The notes beneath the pieces are model-generated. The model was not told where the DNA came from and did not search any database. It worked only from the letters and a program-made list of their open reading frames with translations. A stretch of 64,000 bases of DNA from Motacilla alba alba (lineage: Eukaryota; Chordata; Aves; Passeriformes; Motacillidae): contig NW_024037374.1 of the NCBI RefSeq assembly GCF_015832195.1, positions 2,294,001 to 2,358,000 of the forward strand. The letters are read 5' to 3'. The position numbers were made by a program, and so were the translations under genes. This document shows positions 2,441 through 55,417 of this stretch, piece by piece; within the stretch, counting starts at the first letter, position 1, and every line of letters begins with the position of its first letter.

Positions 2441-2700
2441 TTCCCCCAGGTGGGGCTCGGGCTCATTTGGTCCCTCAGGAGCTGGGCTGGGGGCTGCAGA
2501 GGTGGCTGTGGAGCATTGCCTGTGCTGTGCCAGGGCCTGGCAGCCACTCCTGGGCTGGGATAGAGGCTCTGGGGGGATTGGGGTTCCAGGGCAGGGCAGT
2601 GCTGGGCTTGCAGGGCAGGGCAAGGCTGGACCTGCCCCTTCCTCCCCCACACACAAAATGTTTCCAGCCAACAATCTCCTCCAGTCTGTCACAACAGGCA
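2441..2700 (+). repeat. GC-rich spacer between D and E, copy 1
   Basis: Repetitive CAGGGCAGGGC-type sequence. It recurs inverted at 13105-13430, and its right end recurs at 38232-38340 and 55300-55417. No gene is visible; open frames on both strands are by-products of high GC content. Confidence 0.6.
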
Positions 2701-3270
2701 ATGTTGGAGGTGAAATCCCAATTTGGCCATGGGAACCTGGCCAGGAAGGACAGATCCATAGGAGGGAAAGCATGGAGCCCCAGTGTTTGGAAGGCAGGCA
2801 AGAGCCTCACTAGGCCAAGGCCAGCCAGACTTGTCAGCAATGGCAGATTTTGTCTGGGAGCAGTCTTTGGATTTAAGGAATTTTGGGGGTGGAAGCCCCA
2901 TCTCACCTGTGGGCGCCTGGAGAAGCAGGAAAGTTCTTTCCCATAGGAAGGAAAGCACGGAGCCTTCTCCAATGTTTTGGAGACAGATGGGAAATGACCC
3001 TTGTGAAACCACTCCAAGACAGACTTGTCCTGGCAATATTCCTATTAGAACAAACCCTGGATATAAGGAAATTGGGAGGTGAAATCCCAATTCTGACCAT
3101 GGGTGCCTGGAGGAGAAGGCCTGTTCTTTTCCATAGGAAGGAAAGCATGGAGCCCCAGAGTTTCAGTAGCAGATGAGAAGAGACCCTCAACATGCCCAGG
3201 TCAGCTGGACCAGTCAGGCATTCCATGCGAGGCCAAACCAGCCAGACCTGTTCTGTGTTCCCTTGGTTTT
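2701..3270 (+). repeat. Module E satellite (~185-bp unit), 3 units
   Basis: Three tandem units. The landmark CCATAGGAAGGAAAGCA recurs at about 2755, 2940 and 3130, giving a period of 185-190 bp. The last unit runs into the 37-bp minisatellite through a segment containing CTGTTCTGTGTTCCCTTGG. The same E-to-F transition is used at 38700 and inverted at 54750. Confidence 0.85.
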
Positions 3271-4150
3271 ATTGTGCCTCATAGTGTCACAGTGACACCT
3301 TGGTTCCATGAGGACTTGCAGTGTCACAATGGTCTCCGTGGTTCCCCAGGCCCCATAATGTCATGTGACTCCTCTGTTCCATGAGGGGTCACAATGGACC
3401 TTTTTACCCTGGGGGTTTGCAGTGTCACAGTGGTCTCCTTTGGCTCCAAAGTGTCAAAATGGACCACTGATGACACGAGGCCCCGCAATGTCACAATGGA
3501 CCTTTGGTTCCATGCAGCCCTGCAGTGTCACAAAGGCCTCTTGGTTTCACCAGGCCCGACAGTATCACAATGGTCTTCTTGGTTCTGTGGGGACCCCCAG
3601 GGTCACAATGGTCTCACTGGTTCCATGAGGCCTCACAGTGTCACAATGCTTTGCCTATTCCATGGTACCTCATAGTTTCACAATGGCCTTCATGATTCCA
3701 TGGTGCCCCTCAGTGTCACAATGGCCCCTTGGCTCCATGAGGCTGTGAAGTGTCCTAATGGTCTCTCCATGGTTCCATGAGGCCTTGCAAAGTCACAATG
3801 GACTTTTGGCTCCATTGGGTCTCACAGTGTCACAATGGTCTCCCTTTTCCATGACACTGCAAAGTGTCATAATGGCCTCCATGGTTCCATGAGGCTCCCT
3901 GGTGTCACACTGGAACCTTGGTTTGATGGGGCCTCCCAGTGTCATAATGATACCTACATTCCATGGAGCCACAGAGGGTCAGTACAGCCCTCTTGGTTTC
4001 ATGAGGCCCCACAATGTCACAGTGCTCTCCATGATTCCATGAGGCCCCACAGTGTCACAATGGTCCCTTGGTCTCACAGGGCCCCACAGTGTCACAATGG
4101 TCCCTTGGTCTCACAGGGCCCCACAGTGTCACAATGCTCCCTTGGTTCCA
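3271..4150 (+). repeat. Module F minisatellite (~37-bp unit)
   Basis: About 24 degenerate tandem units built on CACAGTGTCACAATGG followed by a CTTGGTTCCATGAGG-like half. Two adjacent units at 4045-4118 are identical and give an exact 37-bp period. The period is 1 modulo 3, so all frames pass through the same peptide and stay open by chance. Those frames are not genes. Confidence 0.9.
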
Positions 4151-4800
4151 TGGGCCCTGTGCTGCTGCATTCCCCCCTCCCTTTCTCAGGCCGCCCTGCC
4201 AGCTGAGAAATGCTCCTTGGGCCTCGGCCTTGGCCAGCAGCCCCTGGGCTCAGCTCCTCTGCAGCTCATCACAAACACTGGCTGCCCCAGGCACTGCTGC
4301 TGCCCAAGGAGCTCCTGCTTTCTGTAGGAGCAGCCCTGGGAACTGCTTTTGTTCCCTCAGTGCCACAACATCCCTGTTCTCACACTGCCAAAGAAAGCTG
4401 TTGATGCCGAGTGCGGCCAGGATGAGCCATTGCTGGGACTGAAGCCCCTCTCTTGGGGCCCTACAAACAGCGCTCCAAAAGAAGCCCCTTGGAGCTCTCC
4501 TGGGCCAGCGACTCCCTCGGAGTGGGGCCTCTCCCAGCCTGGAACTCTCCCGTTTGCTGCACTTGGGGATCCCTGAACAGCGACAGAGCCTGGGCCAATC
4601 CCCCCACTCCTCCGGGCTCAGCCCTTCACCTGCTGGGGAGATGCCAAAGGATCCCCAGGGAGCATTTCCTGCCCTCAGGGGAATTTCTCACAGGCCCCTT
4701 GCACTGACTCTTGGTGTCTGTGTGCACACAGGAGTGCCTGTGCTGGGCAAATGGGGCAGAAATGCTGCTCTCTGAGGGGCTTGAGTGCCTTGGATAGCTG
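4151..4800 (+). repeat. Module G, copy 1
   Basis: GC-rich 0.65-kb block present again at 39430-40080 (direct) and 53500-54150 (inverted), always between F and H. It contains long overlapping open frames with no recognisable domain, and their starts and stops differ between copies. Treated as non-coding. Confidence 0.75.
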
Positions 4801-5340
4801 AGTCAGTCAGGCCTGTAGGTAAGGTTAAATCACAAGGTCTAAGAGAAGTTAAATGCTGCTAAGAGTTGTTCTTTTGCTAAGTTGTTATGTTTAATAAAAG
4901 TCATAAGCTGAGTTAAATACTTTCAAGTGGTATTCATTAAATTTAAAAGTCACATATTATAAGTCAGATTAAATACTCTTAAGCTCTGTTCTTTTGCTAA
5001 ACTGTGAAGTTTAAGGTGTCAGTATAGGTTAAGGCATAATTGAGTTCTGTTAAGTTTAAGCTGTGTTAAGCTTTTGGGCAGTATTCCTTTTATCTTTGCT
5101 CTGACTGTCCTTTTGTCCCGCACACACACACAGAGGAACAGTTCTCTGTTCATTTCTCTGTATGAGGGCCTTGATTTTGTTTCGTTTTGCTGCTTTGTTT
5201 CCCTGGTGTGCCTTAAGTGTCCAGTCAGGAGCAGAGTGACTCTTGCCAAGGAACTTTGCAGTGCTGTCACTTTAATATTAAATCTAGTTTTTGCTGATCC
5301 TTCACTGAGGATTTTTTCAGTGCTCTCAAGCCCTTTTTCA
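4801..5340 (+). repeat. Module H, AT-rich LTR-like block, copy 1
   Basis: It begins with two or three imperfect ~80-bp repeats rich in TTAAGT and GTTCTTTTGC, followed by a stretch with an AATATTAAATC element. Copies are at 40080-40620 (direct) and 52970-53500 (inverted). Composition differs sharply from GC-rich neighbours G and I. It could be an LTR or LTR leader; I could not define termini. Confidence 0.55.
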
Positions 5341-5620
5341 TAGGAGGGTGAAGGAGCTCTGGCCCAGGCTCTGCACCTGAAGGAGAATGAGGCGCTGCCA
5401 GGGAGTCCCTGTCCCCCTGTCCCACCCCCACAGCCCTGTCCACTCATCCCCGTGTCAGGTTCTGGGGTGGATCTCGTGGAACATCCTCTGGGGGTGGCTG
5501 CGGCGTCAGGGGCGGGGGGACCCGGGGGGCTGGTGATCCCCATGTGCATGAGCAGCATTGGACGTTGCACTCCTCTGGAGGGAACTGTGAGGGGCGGGTG
5601 GGGCAGAGTGACCTCCCCAG
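5341..5620 (+). repeat. Module I, copy 1
   Basis: GC-rich 0.28-kb block around a GTGGATCTCGTGGAACATCC landmark. It recurs at 40620-40880 (direct), 52690-52970 (inverted) and, shortened, at 17000-17220. It always precedes a J array in the same relative orientation. Confidence 0.7.
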
Positions 5621-6000
5621 TGATGTCACACAGCCCCTGTGATGTCACACAGCCTTCTGTGATGTCACACAGCCCCCTATAATTTCACACAGCCCACTGA
5701 GATATCACCCTGTGATGTCATACAGCTGCTCTGTGATGTCACAGAAAACTCCATGATGTCACAAAGTCACTCTGTGATGTCACAAAGTCACCCTGTGATG
5801 TCACAGTGTGTTCTTTGATGTCACAGCCTGCTCTATGATCTTACACAGCCACCCGGTGATCTCACAACCCACTCTCTGATGCCACAGAGCCACCCTCTAT
5901 GATGGCAGTGTCTTCTCTATGGCCTCACACCCTACTCTGTGATATCACAGCCAGCTCTGTGATGTCACAACTCCCTCACTGATGTCTTAAAACCCTCAAG
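5621..6000 (+). repeat. Module J array: TGTGATGTCACA repeats
   Basis: About 18 degenerate tandem units of roughly 20 bp. The core TGTGATGTCACA is nearly its own reverse complement (TGTGA / TCACA arms). The central octamer TGATGTCA is one CpG transition from the CRE palindrome TGACGTCA. Other J arrays are at 11060-11590, 17220-17370, 36720-37240, 40880-41365, 52345-52690 and 56400-56530. Confidence 0.9.
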
Positions 6001-6960
6001 AACTCAGTTGCATTGAAACACTCAACATTCTTGCACTTCCAAGAGATCCCTGTCAGGGACACAACTGAGAAAGTGTCCCCAGGTTCCAGCCAGAGCAGAA
6101 CACTGGAGGCAGTGATGACAGCTGGGGACAAGCAAGGCAAAGGTGTCCCTGGTGCTGAGCAATCCCGGATGTGTTTCAGGAATGCAAAGGGCCAAGGCCT
6201 GAGCCCCAGCCCCTGGCAAGGCAGATCCTGTCCCTCCCTCCTTGCTCAGGGCTCTTCCCGGCATGGGCACTGGCATGTGGGGATGGGCAATGCCAAGGGC
6301 AGGAGCATGGGGCGGCCCCTGCCAGGCTGCTGAGCAGGGCCAAGGAGGCAATGAGGCCCCAGGGCTGCAAGGGTCACTTGTCCCCTCGTGGCCTCAGGCC
6401 CAGGGCCAGCAGCCGTGGCCCAAGTGCTGCTCAAGTTGGCTCTGGCAGGGCCTTGCAGCTGCTGCCCATCCCTGTGCCCTGTGCAGCCCAGGCTGTCCTA
6501 CGGTGTCCCTGCCCTGCGCCTCTGTCCCTGCAGGCTGTCGTCATGCCCCGGCTGCCCCACCTGGCTGGCCCCTTCCTTTGCTGACAGCTCTGCCTCCTGC
6601 CTGCTTCTGCCTGCCCACACAAAGCCTTGGGCTGCTCCAGGCTCCTCCTGGGGGACGTGTTGCACCACAGCCCTGCACTGGCAGGGAAATCCTTTCTCCT
6701 GGTGTCCAGTCTGGTCCTCCCCAGCTGCATTTGTGGTGTCATTTCTCTCTCTGGCTGTTTTCAACTATGGAGAAAAAGTTCCACCATTTCTGAATCCGCC
6801 CCTCAAGCCCTGCCAGGCCACTCCTGTTCTGTCCTCAGTCTCTTCACAGCTGAGCCCAAGCTAATCAGCCTCCATGTATGGGTTATGTTCTTGAGGCCTG
6901 TAAACCCCAGCTTGGGAGATCTCTGGGCCCTCTCCAAGGTGTTAGAGATGAAAACATTCT
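6001..6960 (+). repeat. Module K, copy 1
   Basis: A 0.96-kb block starting near a GAAAGTGTCCCCAGG landmark (about 6068-6082). It is inverted nearly full length at 51360-52345 and truncated direct at 41365-41660. A diverged piece lies at 24740-24980, upstream of the olfactory receptor. High GC produces several overlapping frames of 100-180 codons; none is shared intact between copies. Confidence 0.75.
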
Positions 6961-8511
6961 GCTCATAGTCTAAGAAAATCACCAGAGGCCAGGGCCAGGC
7001 AGAGCTGTCTGTCCTGGAAGCTTTTGTCTGGGAGCAATCCTGGGATAGATGGAATTTTGGCGGCCAAATTCCAATTTCTGCCATGGCTCCTGGACAAGAA
7101 GGCAAGTTCTTTTCCATAGGAAGGAAGGCACAGAGCCCTGGTGCTTCCAAGGCAGATGAGAGGTGACCACCAGAGGGCAAGGCCAGCCAGAGCTGGCAGG
7201 CTTTTGTCTGGGAGATACCATTGCATAAAGGAATTTTTTCATGGGGAGTACCAAATTTGTCCATGGGCATCTGAAAAGAGAGACAGTTCTTTTCCATAGG
7301 AAGGAAAGAATGGAACCCCAGTGGTTCATGGGCAGAGGAGAAGCAGCCCTTGACATTCCAAGATCAGCTGGACCTGTCAGGTCGCCTCTGAGATGCCAAA
7401 TCAGCCAGACCTGTTCCATGTTCCCTTGATTCCATGGGCCCACAGTGTCACCATGGTCTCCATAGGAAGGAAACAACCGAGCCCCAGTGTGGCAGGGGCA
7501 GATGAGGGGCAGTCACCAGAGGCCAAGGGCAGCCAGACCTCTCTGTCCTGGCAGCTTTTGTCTGAAATCAACCTTTGGATAGAGGGGATGTTGCCTGTGG
7601 GATCCTACTTTTGGCCATTTCTGCATTGATAAGAAGGATGTATCTTTTCCATAGGAAGGAAAGCACAGAGCCCATGGGTTTCAGGGCCAGAAGTGGAGAG
7701 AGAAGGCTCCTGAGAGGCCAAGCCAGGCAGACCTGTTTGTCCTGGCACCTTTTGTCACAGAGGAGTCCTTGGACATACAGAATTTTGGAGGTGGAATCTC
7801 AATTTTGACCATGGGCACCTCATTCAGGTGGATGGTTTTTCCCATAAGAAAGAAAAGCATGAAGTGCAAGTGTTTTGGAAGAAAATGAGAGGAGACCACC
7901 CATGGACCAAGAGAGCCAGACCTGTCTCTCCTGACATCTGGGGGAAATCCTTGGACACAGGGCATTTGGGAGGTGGAATCTCAATTTTTGGGTACATGGA
8001 TAGGAAGGAGAGTTCTTTTATTAAGAAGGAAAGCCCAGAGTGCCAGTGTTTCAGAGGCAGATGGGTGCCAGCCCCCAGGAAGCCAAGGCCAGCCAGACTT
8101 GTCAGTCCTGGCAGCTTTTGTCTGGGAGCTATCCTAGGATATAGGGAATTCTGGAGGTGGATTCCCAACTTTGGGCATGGGTGCCTTGATGTGAAAGGCA
8201 CTTTTTTCCCATAGGAAAGAAAAGCACATGGTCCCAGCGTTTGAAAGGCAGATGAGAGGTGGCCCCTGGGTGGCCAAGGCAGCCAGATCTGTCTGTCCTG
8301 GCAGATTTCCTCTGGGAACAATCTTTGCATATAAGGAATTTGGAGGAGGAATCCTGATTTTGGCCATGGACACCTGGAGGAGAAAGACAGTTCTTTCCAC
8401 AGAAAGGAGAGCACAAAGCCCCAGTGCTCCAGGGGCTGATGAGCAGCAGCCCTCAACATGCCAAGGGCAGCTGGACCTGTCAGGCAGCCCCCAGGTGGCC
8501 CAGCCAGCCAG
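6961..8511 (+). repeat. Module E satellite (~185-bp unit), about 8 units
   Basis: Tandem array with the CCATAGGAAGGAAAG landmark at about 7103, 7289, 7461, 7647, 7840, 8018, 8204 and 8391 (spacing 172-193 bp). Units differ by point changes and short indels. On the minus strand several units stay open in a ~62-residue periodic frame (for example 7824-8459), discussed under findings. Confidence 0.9.
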
Positions 8512-8949
8512 GCCTTGATGCCTTGAGAGGCGACCTAGGACAGAGGCTAGACAGTGTTAGAGGAATGAAGTAGGGATTTATTAAAAAGCCCTTCAAAGGA
8601 TACACCTGGGGCAGCACAAGAGCCCAGCCAGAGCTACACCCAAGATGGACAATGGGTCATGAGTCTTCTATAAGTTTTGGTCCATTTACACATTGAGGTT
8701 CATTGTCCAGTTACAGCTTCAGGTTATGAAGTCACATCTTCCCAGAGTGCTCTCCTCAATTCACTGTTGTTTACACCTTTTGGGCCTGAAGCTGCAACGG
8801 TGTCTGTGGTTCTCGGGCAGGGAAAGGATTGTTTTGTTTAACTACAGTGTGAAGAGAACTTGCTGACACTCTGTATGAAGTTCAGAGTTACAGACTAGTG
8901 CAGAACAGAATCTGGAAAATATGAAAGCTAAAACGTAAGGCATCAGCCT
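8512..8949 (-). mobile_element. Solo LTR L, copy 1, with 4-bp TSD
   Basis: The LTR spans 8516-8945 (430 bp) and is flanked by GCCT at 8512-8515 and 8946-8949. Its ends are inverted (TGATGCCTT / AAGGCATCA). Read on the minus strand it has a TATA-like TTATAGAAG and an AATAAA before the 3' end, the order expected of a retroviral U3-R-U5. The twin at 49391-49820 has the same flanks inverted. Confidence 0.85.
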
Positions 8950-9160
8950 GTTCCATGTTCCCTTGGCTCCGTGGGGACCCACAGGGTCACAATGGCTCCT
9001 CCGTGACACTCTGGGCTCCACTGTGTCACTCTGGGCCCTTGGTTCCTTGGGAGTTTCACAATGGTCTCCTTTCATTCCACAAGGTCCCCAGAGTGTGGGG
9101 GCCTTGGTTCCAATGTCCCCTTGGTTCCATGAGGTTACCCAGTGTCACCGTGGTTGTTGT
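8950..9160 (+). repeat. Module F minisatellite, short array
   Basis: Five or six degenerate ~37-bp units (GTGTCACAATGG-type cores) between LTR L and module M. It is mirrored at 49195-49390. Confidence 0.75.
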
Positions 9161-9814
9161 CAGAGGCTGGATGAGATCGATGTCCCCAGACACCTTGGGA
9201 TGCTCGGAATGCCCGTGTGGGGCCAGGGCCGGGTCAGGCCTTGGTTTGTGGTGGGACAGAGCCCCGCCCCCAGCCCTGGCCTGGCACAGCTGTCAATCAC
9301 ACAGCGGGGGCAGTGTAACCCAGCTCTGATTGGCTGAGCTGTCAATCAATCATGAACTAGCAGCTGGTTCTAATTAGCTGGTGTCTAATCTGACTCTGAT
9401 TGGACAAGCCACTGGCAGTCCCACCCCAGGGGCGGGCCCATGGAGGCCCAGGGTGTTAAAAGCCGGAGCACGAGGCCAGCCCATGGTTGGGATCCTGCCT
9501 TCTGCAGGGCTTCCTCTGTTAGTGGTGCTGGAACCTGAGCAGTTGGTGCCTATGTGCATGTCTTTCTATGGATCTTCTTCTGTCTTTTAATTGTTCTCTA
9601 TTTCTTCTCCTTCTAATCCTACTTACCTGGGACATTTTTGGGTGACTTAACATCAAAAGTGTTAATGGTTTTTAGGTTAAATGGGCTAAGCTAATGAAGT
9701 TAACACTATGATAAGAGTTTTATGTTGAAGTGGATGTTGTAGTAAACCCTTTGCCAGAGTTCCTTGATTCTCTATATTTTGCCAGTAAAATTTGGTGTCG
9801 TTTTGACCTCTTGG
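9161..9814 (+). mobile_element. Module M, promoter-like LTR, copy 1
   Basis: LTR-like sequence with a recognisable promoter layout on the plus strand: CCAAT-type GATTGG at 9328-9333 and 9398-9403, a GC box GGGGCGGG at 9429-9436 and a TATA-like TTAAAAG at 9456-9462. CACGAGGCCAG and a CT-rich tract follow. The same order (TATTTAAAG, CACGAGGCAAG, CT-rich) occurs in module D. The right part ends in a CCAGTAAAATTTGG segment comparable to the end of A. It recurs inverted at 48562-49195. Confidence 0.6.
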
Positions 9815-9946
9815 CTCAGTTGGTTAGGGCATGGTGCTGGTATCACTGAGCCTGTGGATTCAACACTGGTGTGGGCCATTCACTTAAGAGCTGGACTTGA
9901 TGATCCTTGTGTGTGCCTGCCTACCAAGAATATTCTCTGCATCTGG
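9815..9946 (+). mobile_element. tRNA-Ile-derived SINE (TguSINE1-like), copy 1
   Basis: The head matches tRNA-Ile: an A-box-like TGGCTCAGTTGG at about 9822 and a degraded B box GTGGATTCAACAC at about 9853. The body then passes into CTGGACTTGATGATCC, the signature shared with CR1 3' tails. A tRNA-Ile head with a CR1-like tail is the structure known for the songbird SINE TguSINE1. The other copy (48421-48561, inverted) keeps a better B box. It cannot be a functional tRNA because the acceptor stem and anticodon arm do not fold. Confidence 0.8.
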
Positions 9947-10072
9947 CCATGTTGAGAATACCTGGTTGGTGTTTCTCCTGTGCACCAAACTCAATGAAAG
10001 GAACCTTTGGTTGCCCCCAGCATTTCAGTGTTCTGGGGTGTTGCAGCCCTGCAGGCTCACAATGATCCCCTT
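9947..10072 (+). other. Junction segment before LTR N
   Basis: About 125 bp that recurs inverted at 48300-48420. It ends abruptly where LTR N begins. In the other two N copies this side of the LTR is module E sequence instead, so this is a rearrangement junction. Confidence 0.5.
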
Positions 10073-10842
10073 TGTTATGTTTGCCCAATTATCCAATCAC
10101 AAATTAAAAAACCAAACAAAATTAAACGTTGCAGCAATTTTAATGAAGTGGTTTAGAATATATAAAATTGAATACAATCAAAATATTGGCAGTATAATTT
10201 GGTTAAAATGAGGAATAATCTGGTTCTGATAATAGTGCATAAGCAAAAGATTACCAGGGGGTACGGAGTGCAAGGGCTTTGGGACCCCTGCCTCCTCACA
10301 TACAAGGTCCTCAAATTACAATTCCCCTTTTTATGCTCTGTGCCATCACCATCTCCTCCTATTTTCGATTCGTCACATTCGTATTTCCACCCTTATCCTC
10401 TTCTTCATCACACATGTGCTGCCATCCCTTGTAGGTGGTCGCAGCACTCTTTGGGGGTCATCTGAGGAAGGCTTCTCCTCTTCCTCAGGTGTCCTTTGTT
10501 TCACATTTGGATTACACATGCGCACCAAGCTGGTATAGTATGAGCAAAAACTAACATTATATGAGCCAATGCCATGTTCTAACATTAAAGCAATAAATCT
10601 CATCACATTAACATGTTCCTGATTTCCACCCAAGTTTTCCCTCTCTTTCAGATAAATTTAGTAATAGTTATCTCTTACTCCTTCCTGTCCTGAACATCTG
10701 CAGGAGAAAGGGGGGGATGGACCCCTCCCTTCTTCCTGGCATTTCACTTTTTAACCATTTTGTTATTGCCAAATAATAATTACTGTATCAATATTGATTA
10801 CTGTTTCAATTTTGTCAGCACGAATCACACCTATTTATCACA
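10073..10842 (-). mobile_element. LTR-like element N, copy 1
   Basis: A 770-bp block with TGT...ACA ends. On the minus strand it starts TGTGATAAATAGG and ends GGCAAACATAACA. Copies lie at 37455-38231 (plus) and 55418-56186 (minus). In the copy at 37455 an AATAAA sits near 37803. In all three copies the start abuts the same CR1 3' fragment, while the end abuts different modules. Confidence 0.6.
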
Positions 10843-11055
10843 ATTAGATATTAGGAAAAAGCTTTTACTGGAAAAGTGATAAAGTACTGGAATTGTCTGT
10901 CCTGGGAGGTGGGGGAGTCACCATCCCTGGATGTGTTTACAAAAAGACTGGATATAGTACTGAGTGCCATGGTCTAGTTGAGATGGTGTTAGGGCATGCG
11001 TTGGACTTGATGATCTTCAAAGTCTCTTCCAGCCTTGTGATTCTGTGATTCTGTG
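10843..11055 (+). mobile_element. CR1 LINE 3' end fragment, copy 1
   Basis: About 210 bp matching the 3' terminus of chicken-repeat-1 LINEs: TTAGGAAAAAG, then GGGGGAGTCACCATCCCTGG, then GGACTTGATGATCTTC, ending in the short GATTCTGT tandem tail. The 5' side was cut by LTR N. Copies are at 37242-37454 (minus) and 56187-56399 (plus). Confidence 0.85.
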
Positions 11056-11590
11056 CTTGTGTGACATCACAGACCAGGTTGTGACACCATACAGTAGGCT
11101 CTGACATCACTGGTTTATTATGTGACATCACAGAGCAGGCTGTGACATCACAGTGTGGCAGTATGACATGACAGAGCAAGCTGTGAGGTCACAGAGTGTA
11201 CTGTGACATGATAGGGTGGCTGTGTTACATCACGGAAGGTGTTGTGACATTGCAGGGTGGTTCTGTGAGCCCACAGAGGTGCTGTTTGACATGCTAAGTG
11301 AGTTTTGACATCAGGATGTGACATCCCAGAGCAGGCTGTGACATTCATTGGCTGGTTGTGTGACATCATAGAACAGGTTGTGATGTCACAAAGTGGGCTG
11401 TGACATCACAGGATGGCTGTGTGACATCACAGAGCAGGCTGTGAGGCCACGGAGAAGACTCTGCCATCGTAGATAAGGGCTCTGTGCCATCACAGAGAAG
11501 CTGTGTGATGTCAGAGAGATGGCTGAGACATAACAGAGTGGGTTGTGACATCACAGAGCTGCCTGTGAAATCCCAGAGTGTGGGAGGACA
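11056..11590 (-). repeat. Module J array, inverted orientation
   Basis: About 25 units of TGTGACATCACAGAGCAGG-type repeats, the reverse complement of the array at 5621. It corresponds to 36720-37240 in the opposite arm. Two sub-motifs alternate (GTGACATCACA and variants with GGTCACA), suggesting local expansion of a dimer. Confidence 0.85.
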
Positions 11591-12004
11591 GATTGTCAAG
11601 AGAACAGAGAGAGTGCTGCAGGCTATCTTGCTCCTGATGAATTTCAGCTGGACTAATTCCCAAAGAGTGGGAAAAGCCTTGCCCTTAATAGGATGTGTTT
11701 TCCAAAGAGTGGGTTTATAAAGGAGTGGGTTAGCTGGTCCAGAATCAACTGCAGTCTGCAGGCTGTGCTGTGGGGAAAAAGAGCTGAGCAGTTGTGTGAG
11801 GGGCAGCAAAGGGAAGATGTCGTGTGAGGGAGAGACAGGCTCATGTGGCTGTGCAAGGGACAGGAAAGAGTTAGCTGGTCCCACAGAAGGAAGAGAGAAG
11901 GAGTCAGAAGGCTGCATGGAGTTGCCTGAGGGTAGTCTACAGACAGAAAGCTTTGAGAGTTTTTAGATAATAAGGGGCTGGCGCTTGGGTCATGACCCAA
12001 AGTC
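11591..12004 (+). repeat. Module O, copy 1
   Basis: A 0.41-kb block ending with GGGTCATGACCC, a perfect 12-bp palindrome, at about 11989-12000. It is inverted at 36290-36720, where the same palindrome is kept. The long minus-strand frame through it (11366-11917, about 183 codons) has an almost identical counterpart at 36380-36931. The two copies are highly similar overall, so that alone does not show coding constraint. Confidence 0.7.
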
Positions 12005-12470
12005 ACACATGGGGGAAGGGCCCAGGAAGACCAAGGGGTATTTAAAGCTGACCACGAGGCAAGCACACATCTTGACTCTTCCTCCTCTTGGAATTTCTAT
12101 CTGAACACCTCTAGAATCCAGGAGATGGTAGCTATGTGTGTGCTTCTCTGTATCTTTTTTGTCTTTCTCTCTTTCTGTGTCTTCTTCTAATTCCCTTGTC
12201 TTGCAGATTTTGAGCAACTTAAAATTAAACAGGCTTAGAGTTTGCGATGTTGAATGGGCCACGTTAATGCGTTGAGAAGTGTTCTTTGTTGATTGAATCT
12301 CATTTAAACATTTCCTAAATTTTCTCTGCTTCTCTAAAGTTCCCAGTAAAGTCTGTTTTGTTGTTTTGAACAGCTGAAAATCTCCTGTTTTTATTTCTCC
12401 AGTGAGTCCAACTCAGAGTACAAAAATCATTGTAATTCCTTTGAAATGTCTCATTGAGAGAGACTTTTAT
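12005..12470 (+). mobile_element. Compact D-A LTR remnant (lacks B and C)
   Basis: Module D joined directly to part of module A. It contains the best preserved core promoter of the family: TATTTAAAG at 12039-12047, then CACGAGGCAAG and a CT-rich tract, then a CCCAGTAAAG-type end. Because A and D are adjacent here but separated by 1.45 kb of B+C elsewhere, this copy probably shows the arrangement before the B+C insertion, or a deletion of it. Confidence 0.6.
12039..12047 (+). promoter_or_regulatory. TATA-like element of the D-type LTR
   Basis: TATTTAAAG in a GC-rich context, followed downstream by CACGAGGC. The same pairing occurs in module M (TTAAAAG at 9456) and inverted near 36250. Whether it is used is unknown. 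Confidence 0.4.
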
Positions 12471-12478
12471 GGACGGGG

Positions 12479-13104
12479 TGTTGGAACCCAGGGCACAGAG
12501 AATATTTCTCTGCCTGCTCTGAGGCATCCTGACCCCCAGGGAAGCACTGCTTTTAACCTTCGCCAATGGAGAGAGCTTCCAGGACTTTGGGATGGATTGG
12601 AGTCTACAAGTGTATGAAATAGATAATAGAGAATAGTGCAGTTTGTCACAGGGAAAGAAATTTAGAGTATTGGGATTTCAGTCTAGAGGTAGATAGGAAA
12701 AAAGATGGAGGACCTGGGGTGTTGTCTGAGCTGCTTCTTCTTCTTCATCTACTCCATTTTCTGCAGTGTTGCTGGCACAGGGTGATTGGGTATGGCAACG
12801 CAGAGGGCAGAGGTTACATGGACAGACAAAGGATTAGTTATATGCAGAAAGGTAGAAATGAAGTGCATTTTCAGTGTTAATTGGAGAAAACAGCAGTAAA
12901 AGACCTTGAAACTGTACATCTTGTGATCATTGTTGCTGTACTTGCTTGTGTGCTAAGTCTGGTGCAGATGGTGTGCCAAACTTCTGATAAGATAACAATA
13001 AACAGCAACCTGAAGACCAAAAATAGTCCCGTGTGTCTGTCAGTCCAGGCACAGAACTGTTAAAAGAGGTTTCCCCCCATCAGGGGAACCTCGGGGGCCC
13101 CACA
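12479..13104 (+). mobile_element. Solo LTR (songbird ERVL-type)
   Basis: A 626-bp element starting TGTTGGAACC and ending GGGCCCCACA. It has a CTTCTTCTTCTTC tract, a polyadenylation signal AATAAA at 12997-13002 and a U5-like tail. It interrupts the D/A remnant on its left. No clear target duplication is visible, so the right boundary is approximate. The ERVL assignment is by general resemblance only. Confidence 0.55.
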
Positions 13105-26525: not shown

Positions 26526-26543
26526 AACTCCCCTTTTCTTTTT
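26526..26543 (-). other. Polypurine tract of class I ERV
   Basis: AAAAAGAAAAGGGGAGTT on the minus strand, directly abutting the LTR start. This is the plus-strand primer site for retroviral reverse transcription. Confidence 0.8.
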
Positions 26544-44671: not shown

Positions 44672-44995
44672 CCTCAGCTGACAGCAGGAGGCTGCTGGTG
44701 CCTTTGCCTTGGGAATTGGAGATCATGGCTGCTCTTGGCCCTCTTCTGCTTGCCACCTGAATTTTATCCACAAAACTGCAAGTGCCTCTTGCAGTTGGTG
44801 CTACCCACGGTGCCTTCATGACAGCAAAGTCAGTGTTTTTGTCACAGGCATAAAGATCAGCAGATACTGGAATGCCCACCAGCCCCTGGACACTAGGGGG
44901 AAGGGAATTAATGCCTCACAGGCCACATTTACAGTGCTCAACCACAGCCCTCTTGCTGGTGCTTTGAAAATGAATAATCTGACAGAGGCCAGCAC
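44672..44995 (-). pseudogene. PA-domain exon of an RNF128/RNF149/RNF150-type E3 ligase (degenerate)
   Basis: On the minus strand the frame reads LVGIPVSADLYACDKNTDF, then APWVAPTARGTCSFVDKIQV, then ASRRGPRAAMISN. This is the pattern of the protease-associated (PA) luminal domain of Goliath/GRAIL-type membrane RING E3 ligases: the conserved Cys in a xACxxxTxF setting, a W-x-A segment, G-x-C-x-F-x-x-K-I, and A-x-x-x-G-A. Upstream, EHCKCGL-stop-GINSLPP also fits the family but carries an in-frame TGA at 44916-44918. A strong donor site (GTGAGT, 44666-44671) ends the exon. No transmembrane or RING exon was found nearby. I infer a partial pseudogene. The family call is from memory of conserved spacing. 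Confidence 0.45.
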
Positions 44996-46560
44996 AGAAA
45001 TTGCCTCCATAGTGTGGAATAAATTAAAAATCCACCAGGAGAAACAGAAACCAGAACTTCTCACTTCACTGCTCCTTCCCAGCAGCAGGAAACGTAGATG
45101 CCCAGAGGTATTTTGCACTGCTGCTGACCCCAATTTGAGCCCAGACTCTGCCCAGTCCCAGTGGGAACCTGAGCCCAGCCCAGGGAGCTCAGGGCACGTG
45201 GGGCCAGGCCCAGAGCCCCGGGCACGGCCGCCCATTGCGGGGCAGCAGCGCAGACGGAATGTCCTGCGGCCCAAACCTCCTACTCCTGCCACACAGCGCC
45301 CAGCATTCTCCCCCTCATCCTTCTCTCCCAGCATGGCACAAATTCCAGCTCAGAGGAGGCTTCCCCAGAGAGGGCTCTGGCTCCTGTTCCTGCCTGAGTG
45401 TCCCTGCAGAGGAACAGGCCATTTTTTACACACTTCCACAAGCTCAGGCTTCTCACTTCATGGGCAATCTGGGATGCAATGGCCTTTTTCAGAAAGACAA
45501 AAGCAGAGGATTAGAAATTATTAGGAAAAAAATCACCTTTCTTCCAGAAAAAGTTCACCAAGTCATTCCCTGCATTTCTCCCTTTTACATTCTTTCAGTC
45601 GGCTGCTCTGAGAGGTCTGGCTTGTTCTGGTGCTTCTCATGAACTGATTGTACTCTTGATTTATGCACCAAGGCACCAGATGTGGAATCTTCTAGACTGA
45701 CCTCAAAAATAAACTCTCTCTGTCAGAGCATTTTCACATTCCAGATAATTTTCAAGATGTCCCCTGACAGGTTTGAATGAGTATCACACAACTCTCCACT
45801 TGTGGCTGCAGGCTCTGAAGATTCTTTCTCTGCATTCAGCCAGGCTTGTATTGCCTAACAATTCCTGGTACCACCTCCTGTTTTCTTAGCCTAGAACAGC
45901 AACAATGAAAACCTTACCCATGGCACAACTCTCCAGTCCACCGGGAAAAGAAAGGACAAGTTGTCAAGTTCTCCAAACCTTTGTCCTGCTTTGCTGCAAG
46001 AGTCCTGCTGCACACACAATGTAGAAAGCCAAGAGAAGTTGCAGGTGGTGGCACATCTTGTGACAGGAGCTCAACCTCATTCTCCAGGAAAGGTTCTAGA
46101 AAAGAGCAAACATCACTGTGGAGAAGGTTCTTGGAAAAGCAGAACAGCTTTCCAGAAGTGCCACCTTCTCAGCTGATTGTGTTTGTGTCCTCCTTTCTCT
46201 CCTGCCTTTCTTTGCCTGCTCTGTTTCTCTCTCAGTGTCTCTCTTGACCCAGGGCAGCTCCCACCAAAAACCCTGCCCCGATTTAATTCCCAATCCAGGA
46301 GCTACAGCAACCATGGGTGAAGTTATGAAGGCTGGCAGCAAAATGTCACTGTAACATCTTGCTCCACTTGGCTTTTGGTCCATCTTTAGAGCTTTGCCTT
46401 CAAGGGCAGGAACATCTTTTCCTGGCTGGCAACTGGAATTCCAGACCCTGGCAGTGTGTGCCATGGATCCCAGAGGTGCATTTCCCCAGACTCCCAGGGT
46501 GCTGCTCCTGCCATGCCCCCAAAGAAGCTGTGCAGGGCCAGGGGACAAGGTCCAGCAGCT
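44996..46560. other. Unique insert, remainder
   Basis: A 271-codon plus-strand frame (44709-45524) overlaps the PA-domain fragment on the opposite strand and has no recognisable domain. 45640-46120 is AT-richer without features. Nothing else supported. Confidence 0.35.
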
Positions 46561-47020
46561 GTGTTGCTTCTGCAGTGCCACAAGGGCCCCTGGCTCCATG
46601 AGTTTCCACACTGCCAACAGCAGTTCCTTGGCTCTCATCATGCCCTGCTGTGTCCCCATGGATATTTGGTGTCATGAAGTTCTCCAGTGTCACAATGGCC
46701 TCCCTCGCTCCATGAGCTTCCGCAGGGTCACAATGGCCTCCTTGGATGGGCAGTGTCACCATGGACCATTGGCTCCATGCAGCCCTGCTGGGTCACCATG
46801 GACTCCTTGGTTCCAGGAGGTTCCGGGGGTGTCTCCATGGTCTCCTTGGATCCACAGTGTCACAATGCACCACTGGATCCACGTGGCCCTGCTGTGTCAC
46901 CATGGCCCCTTGGTTCCATGGGACCCCAGGGTCACAATTGACTCCTTGCTTCCATGTCACCCCCTCAGTGTCAAAATGGTCCCTTTGCTCCATGAGGAAC
47001 ACAAAAGTTTTGTAGAAACA
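46561..47020 (+). repeat. Module F minisatellite
   Basis: About 12 degenerate units (GTGTCACCATGG variants common), isolated from E. It lies on the right side of the unique insert, suggesting the insert split one F array. Confidence 0.8.
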
Positions 47021-48155
47021 TTGAGCAAATCCTGCTGAACATACCTGGGAACATCTGCTTGCATTCAAGAGAGAGGTTCAAGGTGAGGATGGCACCAGCA
47101 GCTTCCATCTGCAACAGAGATCCAGGGAAACAACAGGGACAGAGAATTCAGCTGCAAGACTCAGAGAATTCTGCTGCCAGAGATCATTTCTGCTCACACT
47201 GTCCCTTGCAGAAAGGTGACACCATTCCAGGCAGCCTGGACTGAGCAGGTGCTTCCTGAGTGGGGTTTGTTGTTCAGGAAACCTGCTCAGGCTTTTCCAT
47301 TCTTTCCCTGCCAACAGGAAAACTCCTCCTGGGCCTGTGTGCAGGCAGAGGCCTGAGGAGAGCAGGTGGCACATGGTGCAATGGGCTGGGCCATGGAGCT
47401 GCAGAGCTCAGGGGACAAGGTTCTGCTGCAGGGCACAGGGATGTCAGTGCCAGCTGGGCCATGTCAGACATGGTGAGGCTGGGGGTGAGGAGCAGCTTGT
47501 CCAAACAGGGTCAGCCCTCCAGGGGCTCATTCTTCTGCATGCCCAGACCTCCCAAGGAGGCATTCAGCATCAAGATGACCTGGGGAATGCTTCTATCAGC
47601 TCTTCTCTGAACTGGAAAATAAAAACATACTCACTTGATTAAAGAAAAAAGGTCAGGAGGTGCAGTTTGAAATCTTCACCCTTGAAGGTATTCTAAACAG
47701 ACTCCAGTGAGCTGCACAAGCCCTGGAGACTTGAACACTATTGAAGAAAGAAAAGAGCCCCTGAGGGCTTTCTGTATTTTTTTGAGCCTCACTGTGGTTT
47801 TGGGGCTGTGTCCAGGACCCTCAGGCACTAAGAGAAGGCTGAAGAAGCTGCTCAAGGAGTCAGAAGCAAAACTCCAAGTCCATTGGAGCATCACTGGGCC
47901 CCAATGAGGGCAGGGAGTGCCAAAGGCTCCCCAGGGACTGCTGAGAGCAGATCCTTGAGGCCAGGATTGCAGGGAGCCCAAGGCTCTGAGCAGGGAACTG
48001 CAATGCTGAGCAAGGCCTGGGCTGGCTGGGGGAAGCAGAAAGGCCAAGCCCTGAGCCCAGCCTGGCACAGCAGGGCCTGTCCCTCACGGGTGCCTCGGGG
48101 CTGTTTGTGGGGCACTGGGATGTGAGGGGCAGTGAGGACAAATGCCATAAACCTG
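47021..48155. other. Unassigned segment
   Basis: No gene or repeat boundary recognised. 47900-48120 is GC-rich. It separates the direct third copy from the inverted right arm. Confidence 0.35.
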
Positions 48156-48310
48156 TGTGACACTCCAGATCCTCATGGAACCAAGGGGCCAGTGGGACAC
48201 TGTGGGAAGTTGTGGAACCAAGGGGATCATTGCAGCACCGTTGGGGCCCATGGAACCAAGGGGCCAGTGCGACACTGTGGGGCCTCATGGAAACAAGAGG
48301 CCACTGTGAG
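48156..48310 (-). repeat. Module F minisatellite, short inverted array
   Basis: Four units in the reverse sense (CATGGAACCAAGGGGCC type). Confidence 0.75.
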
Positions 48311-48420
48311 CCTGCAGGGCTGCAACACCCCAGAACACTGAAATGCTGGGGGTAACCAAAGGCTCCTTTCCTTGAGTTTGGTGCACAGGAGAAACACCAA
48401 CCAGATATTCTCAACATGGG
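48311..48420 (-). other. Inverted junction segment
   Basis: Mirror of 9947-10050. It continues into the F array here rather than into LTR N. Confidence 0.5.
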
Positions 48421-48561
48421 CAGATGCAAAGAATCTTCTTGGTAGGAAGGGACCCACAAGGATCATCAAGTCCAGCTCTTAAGTGAATGGCCCACACAGG
48501 GATTGAACCCACAGCCTCAGCGATATCAGCACCATGCTCTAACCAACTGGGCCAAGAGGTC
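48421..48561 (-). mobile_element. tRNA-Ile-derived SINE (TguSINE1-like), copy 2
   Basis: Inverted partner of 9815-9946. On the minus strand the B box is better preserved (GGGTTCAATCCC), and the CR1-like tail reads AAGGATCATC in plus sense with GGTAGGAAGGGACCC. It sits at the same position next to module M, so it was copied with the arm rather than inserted twice. Confidence 0.82.
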
Positions 48562-49195
48562 AAAATGACACCAAATTTTACTGGCAAAATATAGAGAATC
48601 AAGGAACTCTGGCAAAGGGTTTACTACAACATCCACTTCAACATAAAACTCTTATCATAGTGTTAACTTCATTAGCTTAGCCCATTTAACCTAAAAACCA
48701 TTAACACTTTTGATGTTAAGTCACCCAAAAATGTCCCAGGTAAGCAGGATTAGAAGGAGAAGAAATAGAGAACAATAAAAAGACAGAAGAAGATCAATAG
48801 AAAGACACGCACATGGATACCAACTTCTCAGGTTCCAGCATGCCCAGGAGAAGGCAGGATCCAGACCAGGCACTGGCCTCGTGCTGTGGCTTTTAACTCC
48901 CTGTGCCTCCATGGGCCCGCCCCTGGGGTGGAACTACCAGTGGCTTACCCAATCAGAGTCAGATTAGACACCAGCTAATTAGAACCAGCTGCTAGTTCAT
49001 GATTGATTGACAGCTCAGCCAATCAGATCTGGGCTACACTGCCCCCGCTGTGTGATTGACAGCTGTGCCAGGCCAGGGCTGGGGGCGGGGCTCTGTCCCA
49101 CCACAAACCAAGGCCTGACCCGGCCCTGGCCCCACGCGGGCATTCCGAGCATCCCGGTGCTCAGACATGGATCTCATCCAGCCTCTGACAGCGAC
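48562..49195 (-). mobile_element. Module M, promoter-like LTR, copy 2
   Basis: Inverted partner of 9161-9814, including both CCAAT-type boxes (as CCAATC at about 48950 and 49019) and the GC box. The TATA-like element reads GTTAAAAG in the minus sense near 48890. Confidence 0.6.
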
Positions 49196-49386
49196 CACGG
49201 TGACACTACGGAACCCCATGGAGCCATGGGTCAGTTGTGACACTCTGGGGACCTTGTGGAATGAAAGGAGACCATTGTGTGACTCCCAAGGAACCAAGGG
49301 CCCAGAGTGACACAGTGGAGCCCAGAGTGTCACGGAGGAGCCATTGTGACCCTGTGGGTCCCCATGGAGCCAAGGGAACATGGAAC
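49196..49386 (-). repeat. Module F minisatellite, short inverted array
   Basis: Mirror of 8950-9160. Confidence 0.75.
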
Positions 49387-49824
49387 AGGCTGATGCCTTA
49401 TGTTTTAGCTTTCATATTTTCCAGATTCTGTTCTGCACTAGTCTGTAACTCTGAACTTCATACAGAGTGTCAGCAAGTTCTCTTCACACTGTAGTTAAAC
49501 AAAACAATCTTTTCCCTGCCTGAGAAGCAAGGACACCGTTGCAGCTTCAGGCCCAAAACATGTAAACAACAGTGAATTGAGGGGAGCAATCTGGGAGGAT
49601 GTGACTTCATAACCTGAAGCTGTAATTGGACAATTAACCTCAATGTGTAAATGGACCAAAACTTATAGAAGACTCATGACCCATTGTCCATCTTGGGTGT
49701 AGCCCTGGCCGGGCTCTTGTACTGCCCCAGGTGTATCCTTTGAAGGGCTTTTTAATAAATCCCTACTTCATTCCTGTAACACTGTCTAGCCTCTGTCCTA
49801 GGTCGCCTCTCAGGGCTTCAAGGC
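49387..49824 (+). mobile_element. Solo LTR L, copy 2, with the same TSD
   Basis: The LTR is 49391-49820 (430 bp), flanked by AGGC at 49387-49390 and 49821-49824, the reverse complement of GCCT around copy 1. Visible elements are TTATAGAAG, and AATAAA in TTTTTAATAAATCCC near 49751. The terminal GGCATCA of copy 1 is GGCTTCA here. Confidence 0.85.
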
Positions 49825-51360
49825 CTGTCTGGCTGGGCCACCTGGGGGCTGCCTGACAGGTCCAGCTGCCCTTGGCATGTTGAGGGCTGCTGCTCATCAG
49901 CCCCTGGAGCACTGGGGCTTTGTGCTCTCCTTCCTGTGGAAAGAACTGTCTTTCTCCTCCAGGTGTCCATGGCCAAAATTGAGATTCTTCCTCCAAATTC
50001 CTTATATGCAAAGATTGTTCCCAGATGAAATCTGCCAGGACAGACAGATCTGGCTGCCTTGGCCACCCAAGGGCCACCTCTCATCTGCCTTTCAAACGCT
50101 GGGACCATGTGCTTTGCTTTCCTATGGGAAAAAAGTGCCTTTCACATCAAGGCACCCATGGCCAAAGTTGGGAATCCACCTCCAGGATTCCCTATATCCA
50201 AGGATAACTCCCAGACAAAAGCTGCCAGGACTGACAAGTCTGGCTGGCCTTGGCTTCCTGAGGGCTGGCACCCATCTGCCTGTGAAACACTGGCACTCTG
50301 GGCTTTCCTTCCTAATGAAAAGAACTCTTCTTCCTATCCATGTACCCACGGCCAAAATTGAGATTCCACCTCCCAAATGCCCTGTGTCCAAGGATTTCCC
50401 CCAGATGTCAGGAGAGACAGATCTGGCTCTCTTGGTCCATGGGTGGTCTCCTCTCATTTTCTTCCAAAACACTTGCACTTCATGCTTTTCTTTCCTATGG
50501 GAAAAACCATCCACCTCGACCAGGTGCCCATGGTCAAAATTGAGATTCCACCTCCCAAATTCTGTATGTCCAAGGATTTCTCTGTGACAAAAGCTGCCAG
50601 GACAAACAGGTCTGACTGGCTTGGCCTCTCAGGAGCCTTCTCTCTCTGCTTCTGGCCCTGAAACCCTTGGGCTCTGTGCTTTCCTTCCAATGCAAAAGAA
50701 ACATCCTTCTTATCAATGCAGAAATGGCCAAAATTGGGATTCCACATGCAAAATCCCCTATATCCAAAGATTGATTTCAGACAAAAGCTGCCAGGACAGA
50801 GAGGTCTGGCTGCCCTTGGCCTCTGGTGACTGCCCCTCATCTGCCCCTGCAACACTGGGGCTCGGTTGTTTCCTTCCTATGGAGACCATGGTGACACTGT
50901 GGGCCCATGGAATCAAGGGAACATGGAACAGGTCTGGCTGATTTGGCCTCTCAGAGGCGACCTGATAGGTCTGGCTGATCTTGGAATGTCAAGGGCTGCT
51001 TCTCCTCTGCCCATGAACCACTGGGGCTCCATGCTTTCCTTCCCATGGAAAAGAACTGTCTCTATTTTCAGATGCCCATGGACAAATTTGGTACTACCCA
51101 TGAAAAATTTCCTGTATGCAAGGGTATCTCCCAGACAAAAGCCTACCAGCTCTGGCTGGCCTTGGCCTCTGGTGGTCACCTCTCATCTGCCTTGGAAGCA
51201 CCAGGGCTCTGTGCCTTTCTTCCTAGGGAAGAGAACTTGCCTTCTTGTCCAGGAGCCATGGCAGAAATTGGAATTTGGCCGCCAAAATTCCATCTATCCC
51301 AGGATTGCTCCCAGACAAAAGCTTCCAGGACAGACAGCTCTGCCTGGCCTTGGCCTCTGG
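49825..51360 (-). repeat. Module E satellite, ~8 units, inverted
   Basis: Mirror of 6961-8511 with the same unit order, including the single F-like unit (CCATGGTGACACTGTGGG at about 50885) embedded at 7430-7460 in the left arm. Confidence 0.9.
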
Positions 51361-52345
51361 TGATTTTCTTAGACTATGAGCTGAATGATTTCATCTCTAA
51401 CACCTTGGAGAGGGCCCAGAGATCTCCCAAGCCGGGGTTTACAGGCCTCAAGAACATAACCCATACATGGAGGCTGATGTGCCTGGGCTCAGCTGTGAGG
51501 AGACTGAGGACAGAACAGGAGTGGCCTGGCAGGGCTTGAGGGGTGGATTCAGAAATGGTGGAACTTTTTCTCCATAGTTGAAAACAGCCAGAGAGAGAAA
51601 TGACACCACAAATGCAGCTGGGGAGGACAAGACTGGACACAAGAGGAGAGGAATTTCCCTGCCAGGGCAGGATTGTGGTGCAACACATCCCCCAAGAGGA
51701 GCCTGGAGCAACCCAAGGCTTTGTGTGGGCAGGCAGAGGCAGGCAGGAGGCAGAGCTGTCAGCAAAGGAAGGGGCCAGCCAGGTGGGGCAGCCGGGGGGT
51801 GACGACAGCCTGCAGGGACAGAGGCACAGGGCAGGGACACCGTGGGACAGCCTGGGCTGCACAGGGCACAGGGATGGGCAGCAGCTGCAAGGCCCTGCCA
51901 GAGCCAACTTGGGCAGCACTTGGGCCATGGCTGCTGGCCCTGGGCCTGAGGCCACGAGGGGACAAGTGACCCTTGCAGGCCTGGGGCCTCATTGCCTCCT
52001 TGTCCCTGCTCAGCAGCCTGGCAGGGGCCGCCCCATGCTCCTGCCCTTGGCATTGCCCATCCCCACATGCCAGTGCCCATGCCGGGAAGAGCCCTGAGCA
52101 AGGAGGGAGGGACAGGATCTGCCTTGCCAGGGGCTGGGGCTCAGGCCTTGGCCCTTTGCATTCCTGAAACACAGCCAGCTTTGCTCAGCACCAGGGACAA
52201 CTTTGCCTTGCTTGTCCCCAGCTGTCATCACTGCTTCCAGTGTTCTGCTCTGGCTGGAACCTGGGGACACTTTCTCAGTTGTGTCCCTGACAGAGATCTC
52301 TTCAAAGTGCAAGAAATTTCAGTGTTTGAATGTAGCTGAGTTCTT
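51361..52345 (-). repeat. Module K, inverted copy
   Basis: Near full-length mirror of 6001-6960. Confidence 0.75.
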
Positions 52346-52690
52346 GAGGGATTTGTAACATCACTGAAGGGGTTGTGACATCACAGAGCTGGCTGTGATG
52401 TCACAGAGTAGGTTGTGAGGCCATAGAGCAGACACTGCCATCATAGAGGGTGACTCTGTGGCATCAGAGGAGTGGGTTGTGACATCACCAGGTGACTGTG
52501 TAAGATCATAGAGCAGGCTGTGACATCAAAGAAGAGACAGTGACATCACAGGGTGACTTTGTGCCATCACAGAGTCTTCTGTGACATCACAGAGCAGCTA
52601 TATGACATCACATGTGACATCTCAGAGTTGACTCTGTGACATCATAAGAAGTCTGTGTGACATCATAGGGGCTGTCTGAGGTCACAGGGG
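52346..52690 (-). repeat. Module J array, inverted
   Basis: About 16 units of TGTGACATCACA type, mirror of 5621-6000. Confidence 0.85.
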
Positions 52691-52970
52691 AGGTGACTCT
52701 GCCCCAGCACCGCCTCACAGTTCCCCCCAGAGAAGTCCAATGCTGCTCGTGCACAGTGGGGTCCCCTGTCCCCCCGGGGCCCCCTGCCCCCAGCACCGCA
52801 GCCTCCCCCAGAGGATGTTCCACGAGATCCACCCCGGAGCCTGACACAGGGATGGGGGGCAGGGGCTGTGGGGGGTGGGATAGGGGGACAGGGACCACCC
52901 AGATGCCTCCCCGTGTCCCCTAGGGCCAGAGCCTGTGCCAGGGCTCCTTCACCCTGTTACAAACCAGGGC
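52691..52970 (-). repeat. Module I, inverted copy
   Basis: Mirror of 5341-5620 (GGATGTTCCACGAGATCCAC landmark). Confidence 0.7.
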
Positions 52971-53500
52971 TTGAGAGCGCTGAAAATATCCCCAGCAAGG
53001 GATCAGCAAAAAACAGATTTAATATTCAGAAATCGCACCACAAAGTTCCTTGGCAAGAGTCACTCTGCTCCTGACTGGACACTTCAGGCACAGCAAGGAA
53101 ACAAAGCAACAACAAAACCAAAAAAAATCCAGGCAATCAAACCCGAAATGAACTGAGAACTGTCCCTGTCTGTGTGTGTGTGACACAAGGACAGTGGGGG
53201 CAAGAATAAAAGGAACATGGCCTAAAAGCTTAACAGAGCTCAAACTTAAAAAGACTTAACTTCTACCTTAACCTTAACTTCTGCCTTAAACATCTCAGTT
53301 TAGCAAAAGAACAGCACTTAACAATATTTAACCTAACTTATAACATATGACTTGATGATTTTTTAGTGTATTAACACTGAACAATATTCAACTTAGCCTA
53401 TATCTTATTAAACTCAAATTAGAAAAAGAAAAACTCTTAACACCATTTAACTTAACTTATCCCTCATGATGTAACCTTACCTACAGGCCTGACTGACTCA
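52971..53500 (-). repeat. Module H, inverted copy
   Basis: Mirror of 4801-5340, diverged in the AT-rich repeats. Confidence 0.6.
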
Positions 53501-54150
53501 GCTATCCAAGGCATTCAAGCCCCTCAGAGAGCAGCATTTCTGCCCCATTTCCCCAGCACAGGCACTCCTGTGTGCACACAGACACCAAGAGTCAGTGCAA
53601 GGCACCTGTGAGAAATTCCCCTGAAGGCAGGAAATGCTCACTGTGGATGCTTTGGCATCTCCCCAGCAGGTGAAGGGTTGAGCCTGGAGGAGTGGGGGGA
53701 TCGGCCCAGGCTCTGTCGCTGTTCAGGGATCCCCGAGTGCAGCAAACGGGAGAGTTCCCGGCTGGGAGAGGCCCCACTCAGAGGGAGTCGCTGGCCCAGG
53801 AGAGCTCCAAGGGGCTCCTTTTGGAGCGCTGTTTGTAGGGCCCCAAGAGAGGGGCTTCAGTCCCAGCAATGGTTCATCCTGGCCGCACTCGGCATCAACA
53901 GCTTTCTTTGGCAGGGTGAGAACAGGGATGTTGTGGCACTGAGGGAACAAAAGCAGTTCCCAGGGCTGCTCCTACAGAAACCAGGAGCTGGTTGGGCAGC
54001 AGCAGTTCCTGGGGCAGCCAGTGTTTGTGATGAGCTGCAGAGGAGCTGAGCCCAGGGGCTGCTGGCCAAGGCCGAGGCCCAAGGAGCATTTCTCAGCTGG
54101 CAGGGCGGCCTGAGAAGGGCAGGGGGGAATGCAGCAGCACAGGGCCATGG
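53501..54150 (-). repeat. Module G, inverted copy
   Basis: Mirror of 4151-4800. Confidence 0.75.
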
Positions 54151-54750
54151 AACCAAGGGAGCATTGTGACACCACGGAGCCTCATGGAACCATGGAGGCC
54201 ATTATGACACTTCAAAGTCTCATGGAACCAAGGGGCCATTGTGACACTGTGGGCACAATGGAATCATGGAGACCATTGTGAAACTATGAGGTACCATGGA
54301 ATAAGCAAATCATTGTGACACTGTGAGGCCTCATGGAACCAGTGAGACCATTGTGACCCTGGGGGTCCCCCCAGAATCAAGAGGACCATTGTGATACTGT
54401 GGGGCCTGGTGAAACCAAGAGGCCTTTGTGACACTGCAGGGTGGCATGGAACCAAAGCTTCATTGTGACATTGCAGGGCCTGATGTCAGCAGTGGTCTAT
54501 TGTGACACTGTGGGCCTCATGGAACAGAGGAGTCACGTGACATTGTGGGACCTGGGGAACCATGGAGACCATTGTGACACTGCAAGGCCTCATGGAAGCA
54601 TTGGGACTATTGTGACACTGTGGGGTCTTATGAAACCTAGAGGCCATTGTGACACTCTGGGACCCCATTGAACCAAGGGTCCATTGTGACACTGCAGGTC
54701 TTCTTCTAATCAAGGCACCATTGTGACACTTCAGGGCCCCATAAAACCAA
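54151..54750 (-). repeat. Module F minisatellite, inverted
   Basis: About 16 units, mirror of 3271-4150 with fewer repeats. Confidence 0.85.
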
Positions 54751-55417
54751 GGGGACACAGAGCATGTCTGGCTGGTTTGGCCTCCCCTGGAATGCCTGAC
54801 TGGTCCAGCTGACCTTGGCATGTTGAGGATCTCTTCTCATCTGCTGCTGAAACACTGGGGCTCCATGCTTTCCTTCCTGTGAAAAAGAACTCTCCTTCTC
54901 CTCCAGGCACCCATGGTCAGAATTGGGATTTCACCTCCCAATTTCCTTATATCCAAGGATTGTTTCAATAGGAATATTGCCAGGACAAGTCTGGCTGGCA
55001 GTGGTTTCACAAGGGTCATTTCCCATCTGTCTCCAAAACATTGGGGAAGGTTCTGTGCTTTCCTTCCTATGGGAAAGAACAGTCCTGCTTCTCCAGGCAC
55101 CCATGGGTGAGATTGGGATTCCACCTCCAATATTCCTTAAATCAAAAGACTGCTCCCAGACAAAATCTGCCATTGCTGACAAGTCTGGCTGGCCTTGGAC
55201 TAGTGAGGCTCTCACCTGCCTTCCAAACACTGGGGCTCTGTGCTTTCCTTCCTATGGAAAAGACCTGTCCTTCTCAGCCAGGTGCCCATGGCCACAATTG
55301 GGGTTCCACCTCCAACATTGCCCATTGTGAGAGACTGGAGCAGATTTTTGGCTCAAAACATTTCATGTGTGAGGGAGGAAGGGGCAGGTCCAGCCTTGCC
55401 CTGCCCTGGAACCCCCG
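54751..55417 (-). repeat. Module E satellite, inverted, 3 units
   Basis: Mirror of 2620-3270. It ends at the GGAACCCCCG junction with LTR N. Confidence 0.8.

Follow-up and report, generated by a model that had tools for sequence, protein, structure and literature searches.

Inverted repeats around an olfactory receptor gene of Motacilla alba alba, very probably derived from mixed-orientation segmental duplication

The window, by which we mean the whole 64-kb stretch analysed (C212:2294001-2358000, placed by a genome search in a 1.07-Gb assembly of 618 contigs, contig C212 being 5,319,226 bases long), carries an olfactory receptor (OR) gene among copies of recurring modules, here called X, Y and Z, and retroviral elements, and several kilobases on the left of the gene return in reverse on its right. 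We find that these inverted repeats are real, yet ordinary for the receptor cluster in which they lie. The neighbourhood used for comparison spans 324 kb, that is C212:2054001-2294000, the window, and C212:2358001-2378000. The features of the window, with long terminal repeat abbreviated LTR, short interspersed element SINE and endogenous retrovirus ERV, are the following.

1-2603, + strand: X1, a copy of module X, with no Z between it and Y1; at its far end, beyond the left edge of the window, it meets a solo LTR
2604-10064, + strand: Y1, a copy of module Y and left outer arm, with 37-bp, 20-bp and ~190-bp minisatellites and a SINE at 9808-10010
12479-13117, + strand: LTR_C, an LTR-like element with a second copy 67 kb to the left (98.6%)
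13120-13260, - strand: scrap of the start of Y, adjoining X2
13261-16508, - strand: X2, a copy of module X, left inner arm
18521-19186, + strand: LTR_A, a solo LTR with a 6-base target-site duplication, GTCCTC
21857-22786, - strand: predicted intact gamma-c / OR14-type OR gene, 310 amino acids; the open frame runs upstream to 22954
25700-29900, - strand: ERV remnants, with an integrase C-terminal piece at 27108-27566
33050-36304, + strand: X3, a copy of module X, right inner arm
38238-44116, + strand: Y2, a third copy of module Y, truncated, diverged beyond 41659
44200-48100, no strand assigned: spacer; other units likewise have it beside the SINE end of Y, and C212:2101177-2105078 is a full copy (93.7%)
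48302-55415, - strand: Y3, a copy of module Y and right outer arm, with a SINE at 48356-48558
56531-64000, + strand: ERV starting with its 5' LTR at 56531-57196, flanks unmatched

The OR gene has an open frame of 310 amino acids from the usual start, the longer open frame being 366, and matches Pfam 7tm_4 (PF13853) at 6.1e-44. Its product aligns gaplessly with 17 passerine homologues except for one end residue, keeping the seven-helix frame intact, and is 87-92% identical to the passerine OR14 proteins among the best 120 matches listed. The alignment also contains MCYDRY, the motif given for zebra finch ORs in an excerpt of the published account (PMC2758906). Judged by its sequence, this is an intact gamma-c / OR14-type gene, and a 97% paralogue lies 232 kb away. 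The idea that the receptor is unusual was rejected: four near-invariant residues differ, but the 17 homologues show one to nine such differences each and a parrot row shows 31. Between the gene and the ERV remnant, a 153-base unit is repeated in tandem about three times at 25001-25697.

Self-BLAST of the window aligned the outer arms, 3501-10064 with 54753-48302 reversed, at 89.06% over 6,588 aligned bases, with a further block of 2604-3815 and 55415-54147 at 83.5%, bearing out the original prediction that a string of modules at 2.6-10 kb returns reversed at 48.3-55.4 kb. Five dinucleotide-preserving shuffles, from each of which the two best inverted matches were taken, yielded no match scoring above 33.7 bits or longer than 50 bases, whereas the real sequence reaches 8,590 bits and 6,588 bases; the inverted repeats far exceed chance. 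A mobile element was also expected at the same position in both arms, and the SINE does occupy the same place in Y1, where it was located by eye, and in Y3. The inner string, described as running from 10.1 to 16.5 kb and returning at 33.1-38.2 kb, matches in reverse in three blocks (10073-12301 with 38231-35995 at 94.3%; 13398-16178 with 36305-33530 at 87.6%; 16286-16508 with 33305-33090 at 78.2%), but it is no exact mirror: the ~1.1 kb of 12302-13397, consisting of the rest of an X scrap, the LTR and the Y scrap, has no counterpart in the mirrored order, and 35995-36305 is matched twice by the inner left arm. Two ERV-bearing spacers had likewise been described. A retroviral piece does lie in the central spacer (27108-27566), but the others, at 60455-62536, are at the right edge and outside the arms, and no retroviral piece was located in the 44-48 kb spacer with a Pfam scan that covered 84 of the 283 stop-to-stop pieces of at least 85 codons and a hit table that does not assign every hit to its piece.

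The arms do not form one nested palindrome, as had been proposed, since the arm pairs have different centres. The midpoint of the outer arms falls at 29.13-29.18 kb, those of the inner arms at 24.15 and 24.85 kb, and the OR at ~22.4 kb. The inner and outer arms meet at 10064-10073 on the left and are 10.07 kb apart on the right, where Y2 lies between them. An inverted pair that does have a single centre, unlisted in the original prediction, runs through the Z-Y junction (36.9-41.7 kb and 52.0-56.5 kb, midpoint ~46.8 kb), and a third long copy of module X occupies 1-2743.

Of the 143 candidate matches to the OR query, 40 were scored, three on contig C450 and 37 on C212 (16 on the + strand, 21 on the -), where they span 1.04-4.43 Mb. 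Eight ORs, four per direction, are spaced 17-65 kb apart in the 324 kb; measured by the longest open frame up to 150 bases from the match, seven have at least 310 codons and one has 206. They belong to a receptor-and-flank unit composed of OR, X, an optional Z, Y, SINE and spacer, which occurs in both orientations and of which several examples are incomplete. X stands on the 3' side of the OR in seven of the eight, sometimes via spacer and often followed by Z and Y, and at the eighth, the 97% paralogue, a run of N intervenes on that side. Yb is present in ten copies (four +, six -). Counting pairs of at least 1 kb and at least 80% identity, we find 203, of which 109 are inverted and 94 direct, and they include one of 8.9 kb at 92.2% and one of 4.8 kb at 96.8%; blocks of at least 1 kb at ~90% identity, as in segmental duplications, are present, some pairs within the window falling below 90%. 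Inverted pairs 2 kb or longer occur in 62 of the 66 64-kb windows tested at 4-kb steps. The longest of all the inverted pairs lies outside the window, at C212:2137940-2146192 with 2193965-2202262 (8.3 kb, 93.5%); it has an OR in each arm and is adjoined by another, C212:2129326-2135606 with 2202256-2208535 (6.3 kb, 95.0%). With these neighbouring arm blocks, C212:2129326-2208535 is a better palindrome than that of the window.

We propose that the inverted repeats are very probably segmental duplications of mixed orientation in a gamma-c OR cluster, old and reshuffled by ectopic recombination. Receptor-and-flank units would have been duplicated in both orientations across the cluster, and ectopic recombination would then have reshuffled the old copies. 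The mirror in the window is most likely a chance facing of such copies; it would not be a palindrome that keeps the two sides of the gene alike. Against this reading, inverted pairs 5 kb or longer are present in only 3 of the 66 windows, all three covering the outer arm pair, and this pair is the third longest of the 109 inverted ones. The original interpretation is supported in part.

The kinship of the copies was assessed with trees and distances built from those within the 324 kb, in which many nodes are weakly supported. None of the predicted arm pairs proved to be reciprocally closest copies. For Xb, the larger part of X, X2 is nearest to a direct copy 67 kb away (C212:2240402-2242329; distance 0.018, bootstrap 100), the distance between X2 and X3 being 0.137, and for Yb, Y1 is the farthest from Y3 of nine copies. 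Strong gene-conversion signals within the window had suggested arm-to-arm exchange, a candidate that was dropped because the same slow and fast stretches are common to copies across the cluster; some mosaic ancestry in Y is possible. The gene conversion between arms that had been put forward is unsupported. This bears on the alternative of a functional palindrome, in which arm-to-arm conversion would keep the arms alike and the arms would protect the receptor gene or multiply its copies, on the model of the ampliconic palindromes of sex chromosomes. The window shares long inverted repeats with these, but its arms, at 89.1%, 94.3% and 87.6%, are far below ~99%, have no common centre (29.15, 24.15 and 24.85 kb), are not each other's closest relatives and contain no OR, the sole OR of the window sitting in a spacer. 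We consider a functional palindrome very unlikely.

Duplication followed by reshuffling can be followed at individual junctions. At C212:2233-2252 kb the order is Yc-, Yb-, Ya-, Z+, X4-, LTR_C, Y scrap, X- (with an extra insert) and, farther on, an OR, which is the order of the window with Y still in place. As Y is kept at this neighbouring locus and lost in the window, the junction at 10064 is derived, and both of its sides exist in unbroken versions. The ERV at the right edge extends from 56531 to C212:2359035, where a second LTR on the same strand (C212:2358370-2359035) is read as the 3' LTR. It has LTRs at both ends but no matching target-site duplication, and is either recombined or wrongly joined. 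A solo LTR left of X1 (C212:2292524-2293187) stands between two opposite X copies, and its flanks also lack a matching target-site duplication. Wrong joining is what a misassembly would imply more widely, similar units having been put together in an order absent from any chromosome; the unmatched ERV flanks are compatible with it, and with recombination, and we regard misassembly as a highly improbable account of the window. LTR_A and LTR_B were considered as an inversion pair and rejected because the target-site duplication of LTR_A is intact. A first model failed on both its predictions, that Z and X would follow the ERV on its right and that an OR would adjoin X1. Downstream of the 5' LTR of the ERV, 58046-58156 is a GGC-type triplet array within a GC-rich stretch.

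Another conceivable origin of the facing copies is a single large mobile element that includes X, Z and Y and was inserted repeatedly, in either orientation. Z starts with TG and ends with CA, its exact end is kept at a foreign junction, and the modules do recur in both orientations. We give this origin hardly any credence, and favour old duplications reshuffled by ectopic recombination.

The genes themselves present a different pattern at their 5' ends. Fourteen ORs were compared, the eight of the 324 kb and six loci outside it; these six match the window OR best, which biases the sample towards it. Over the first ~260 coding bases the pairwise p is 0.012-0.021, as against 0.084-0.095 later, and third positions vary at 10 of 90 sites within the first 270 bases and at 90 of 221 beyond them (Fisher 1.2e-7, for sites that share ancestry and are not independent). 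The eight ORs of the 324 kb alone show the same 5' drop in divergence. Over the 280 bases upstream, five genes match the window OR at 0.41-0.52, another five at 0.76-0.79 and three more at 0.82-0.95. We tentatively suggest, as a possibility about which we remain rather doubtful, that exchange is tightly local and ignores the orientation of the units. It would keep the opening ~260 bp of the coding sequence nearly identical, third positions included, in ORs that are spread over 2.4 Mb and often differ upstream, and would leave the remainder of each gene, like the long inverted arms, to diverge. Constraint on the nucleotide sequence itself would also explain the near-identity. Where conversion acts in avian OR families could be tested directly on this island of identity, which may matter more than the inverted arms.

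Repetitive OR clusters also occur at human 8p23.1 and 4p16, which are large regions that rearrange recurrently, whereas the copies in the window are shorter and older and showed no recurrent rearrangement. In the great tit, the breakpoints of copy-number variation correlate with homologous blocks at least 1 kb long and at least 90% identical (PMC6389189); homologous blocks are common to both cases, genome-wide there and in one cluster here. The human repeats mediate non-allelic homologous recombination, with an inversion polymorphism between them (PMC8954119). As for avian gamma-c (OR14-like) clusters, the window shares an intact gamma-c gene with MCYDRY, as in zebra finch ORs, but published accounts, to the extent of the excerpt cited for that motif (PMC2758906), treat genes and repertoire sizes, whereas we describe the order and orientation of long flanking modules. 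Among the titles listed from the open-access literature, none dealt with oriented units in avian OR clusters, which is weak evidence of absence. The analysis gives a unit-level picture of part of a hard-to-assemble bird receptor cluster, where inverted repeats in one window are an expected outcome of mixed-orientation duplication, and it warns that two facing copies are not to be called a palindrome before the other copies have been checked.

Among the smaller elements, the SINE of Y3 has a tRNA-Ile head at 48487-48562 (ARAGORN), in agreement with TguSINE1, whose head is derived from tRNA-Ile in the family description (PMC5729268). A tail from CR1-X with four diagnostic bases is the other mark of that family. 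Rfam at gathering scores and a search of viral contigs gave no matches. In X1, 650-2060, and in the equivalent part of X2 and X3, one strand consists over ~1.4 kb of only 8-9% C and of 42-45% T; this low-C stretch may represent an old element that was edited or has a strand bias.
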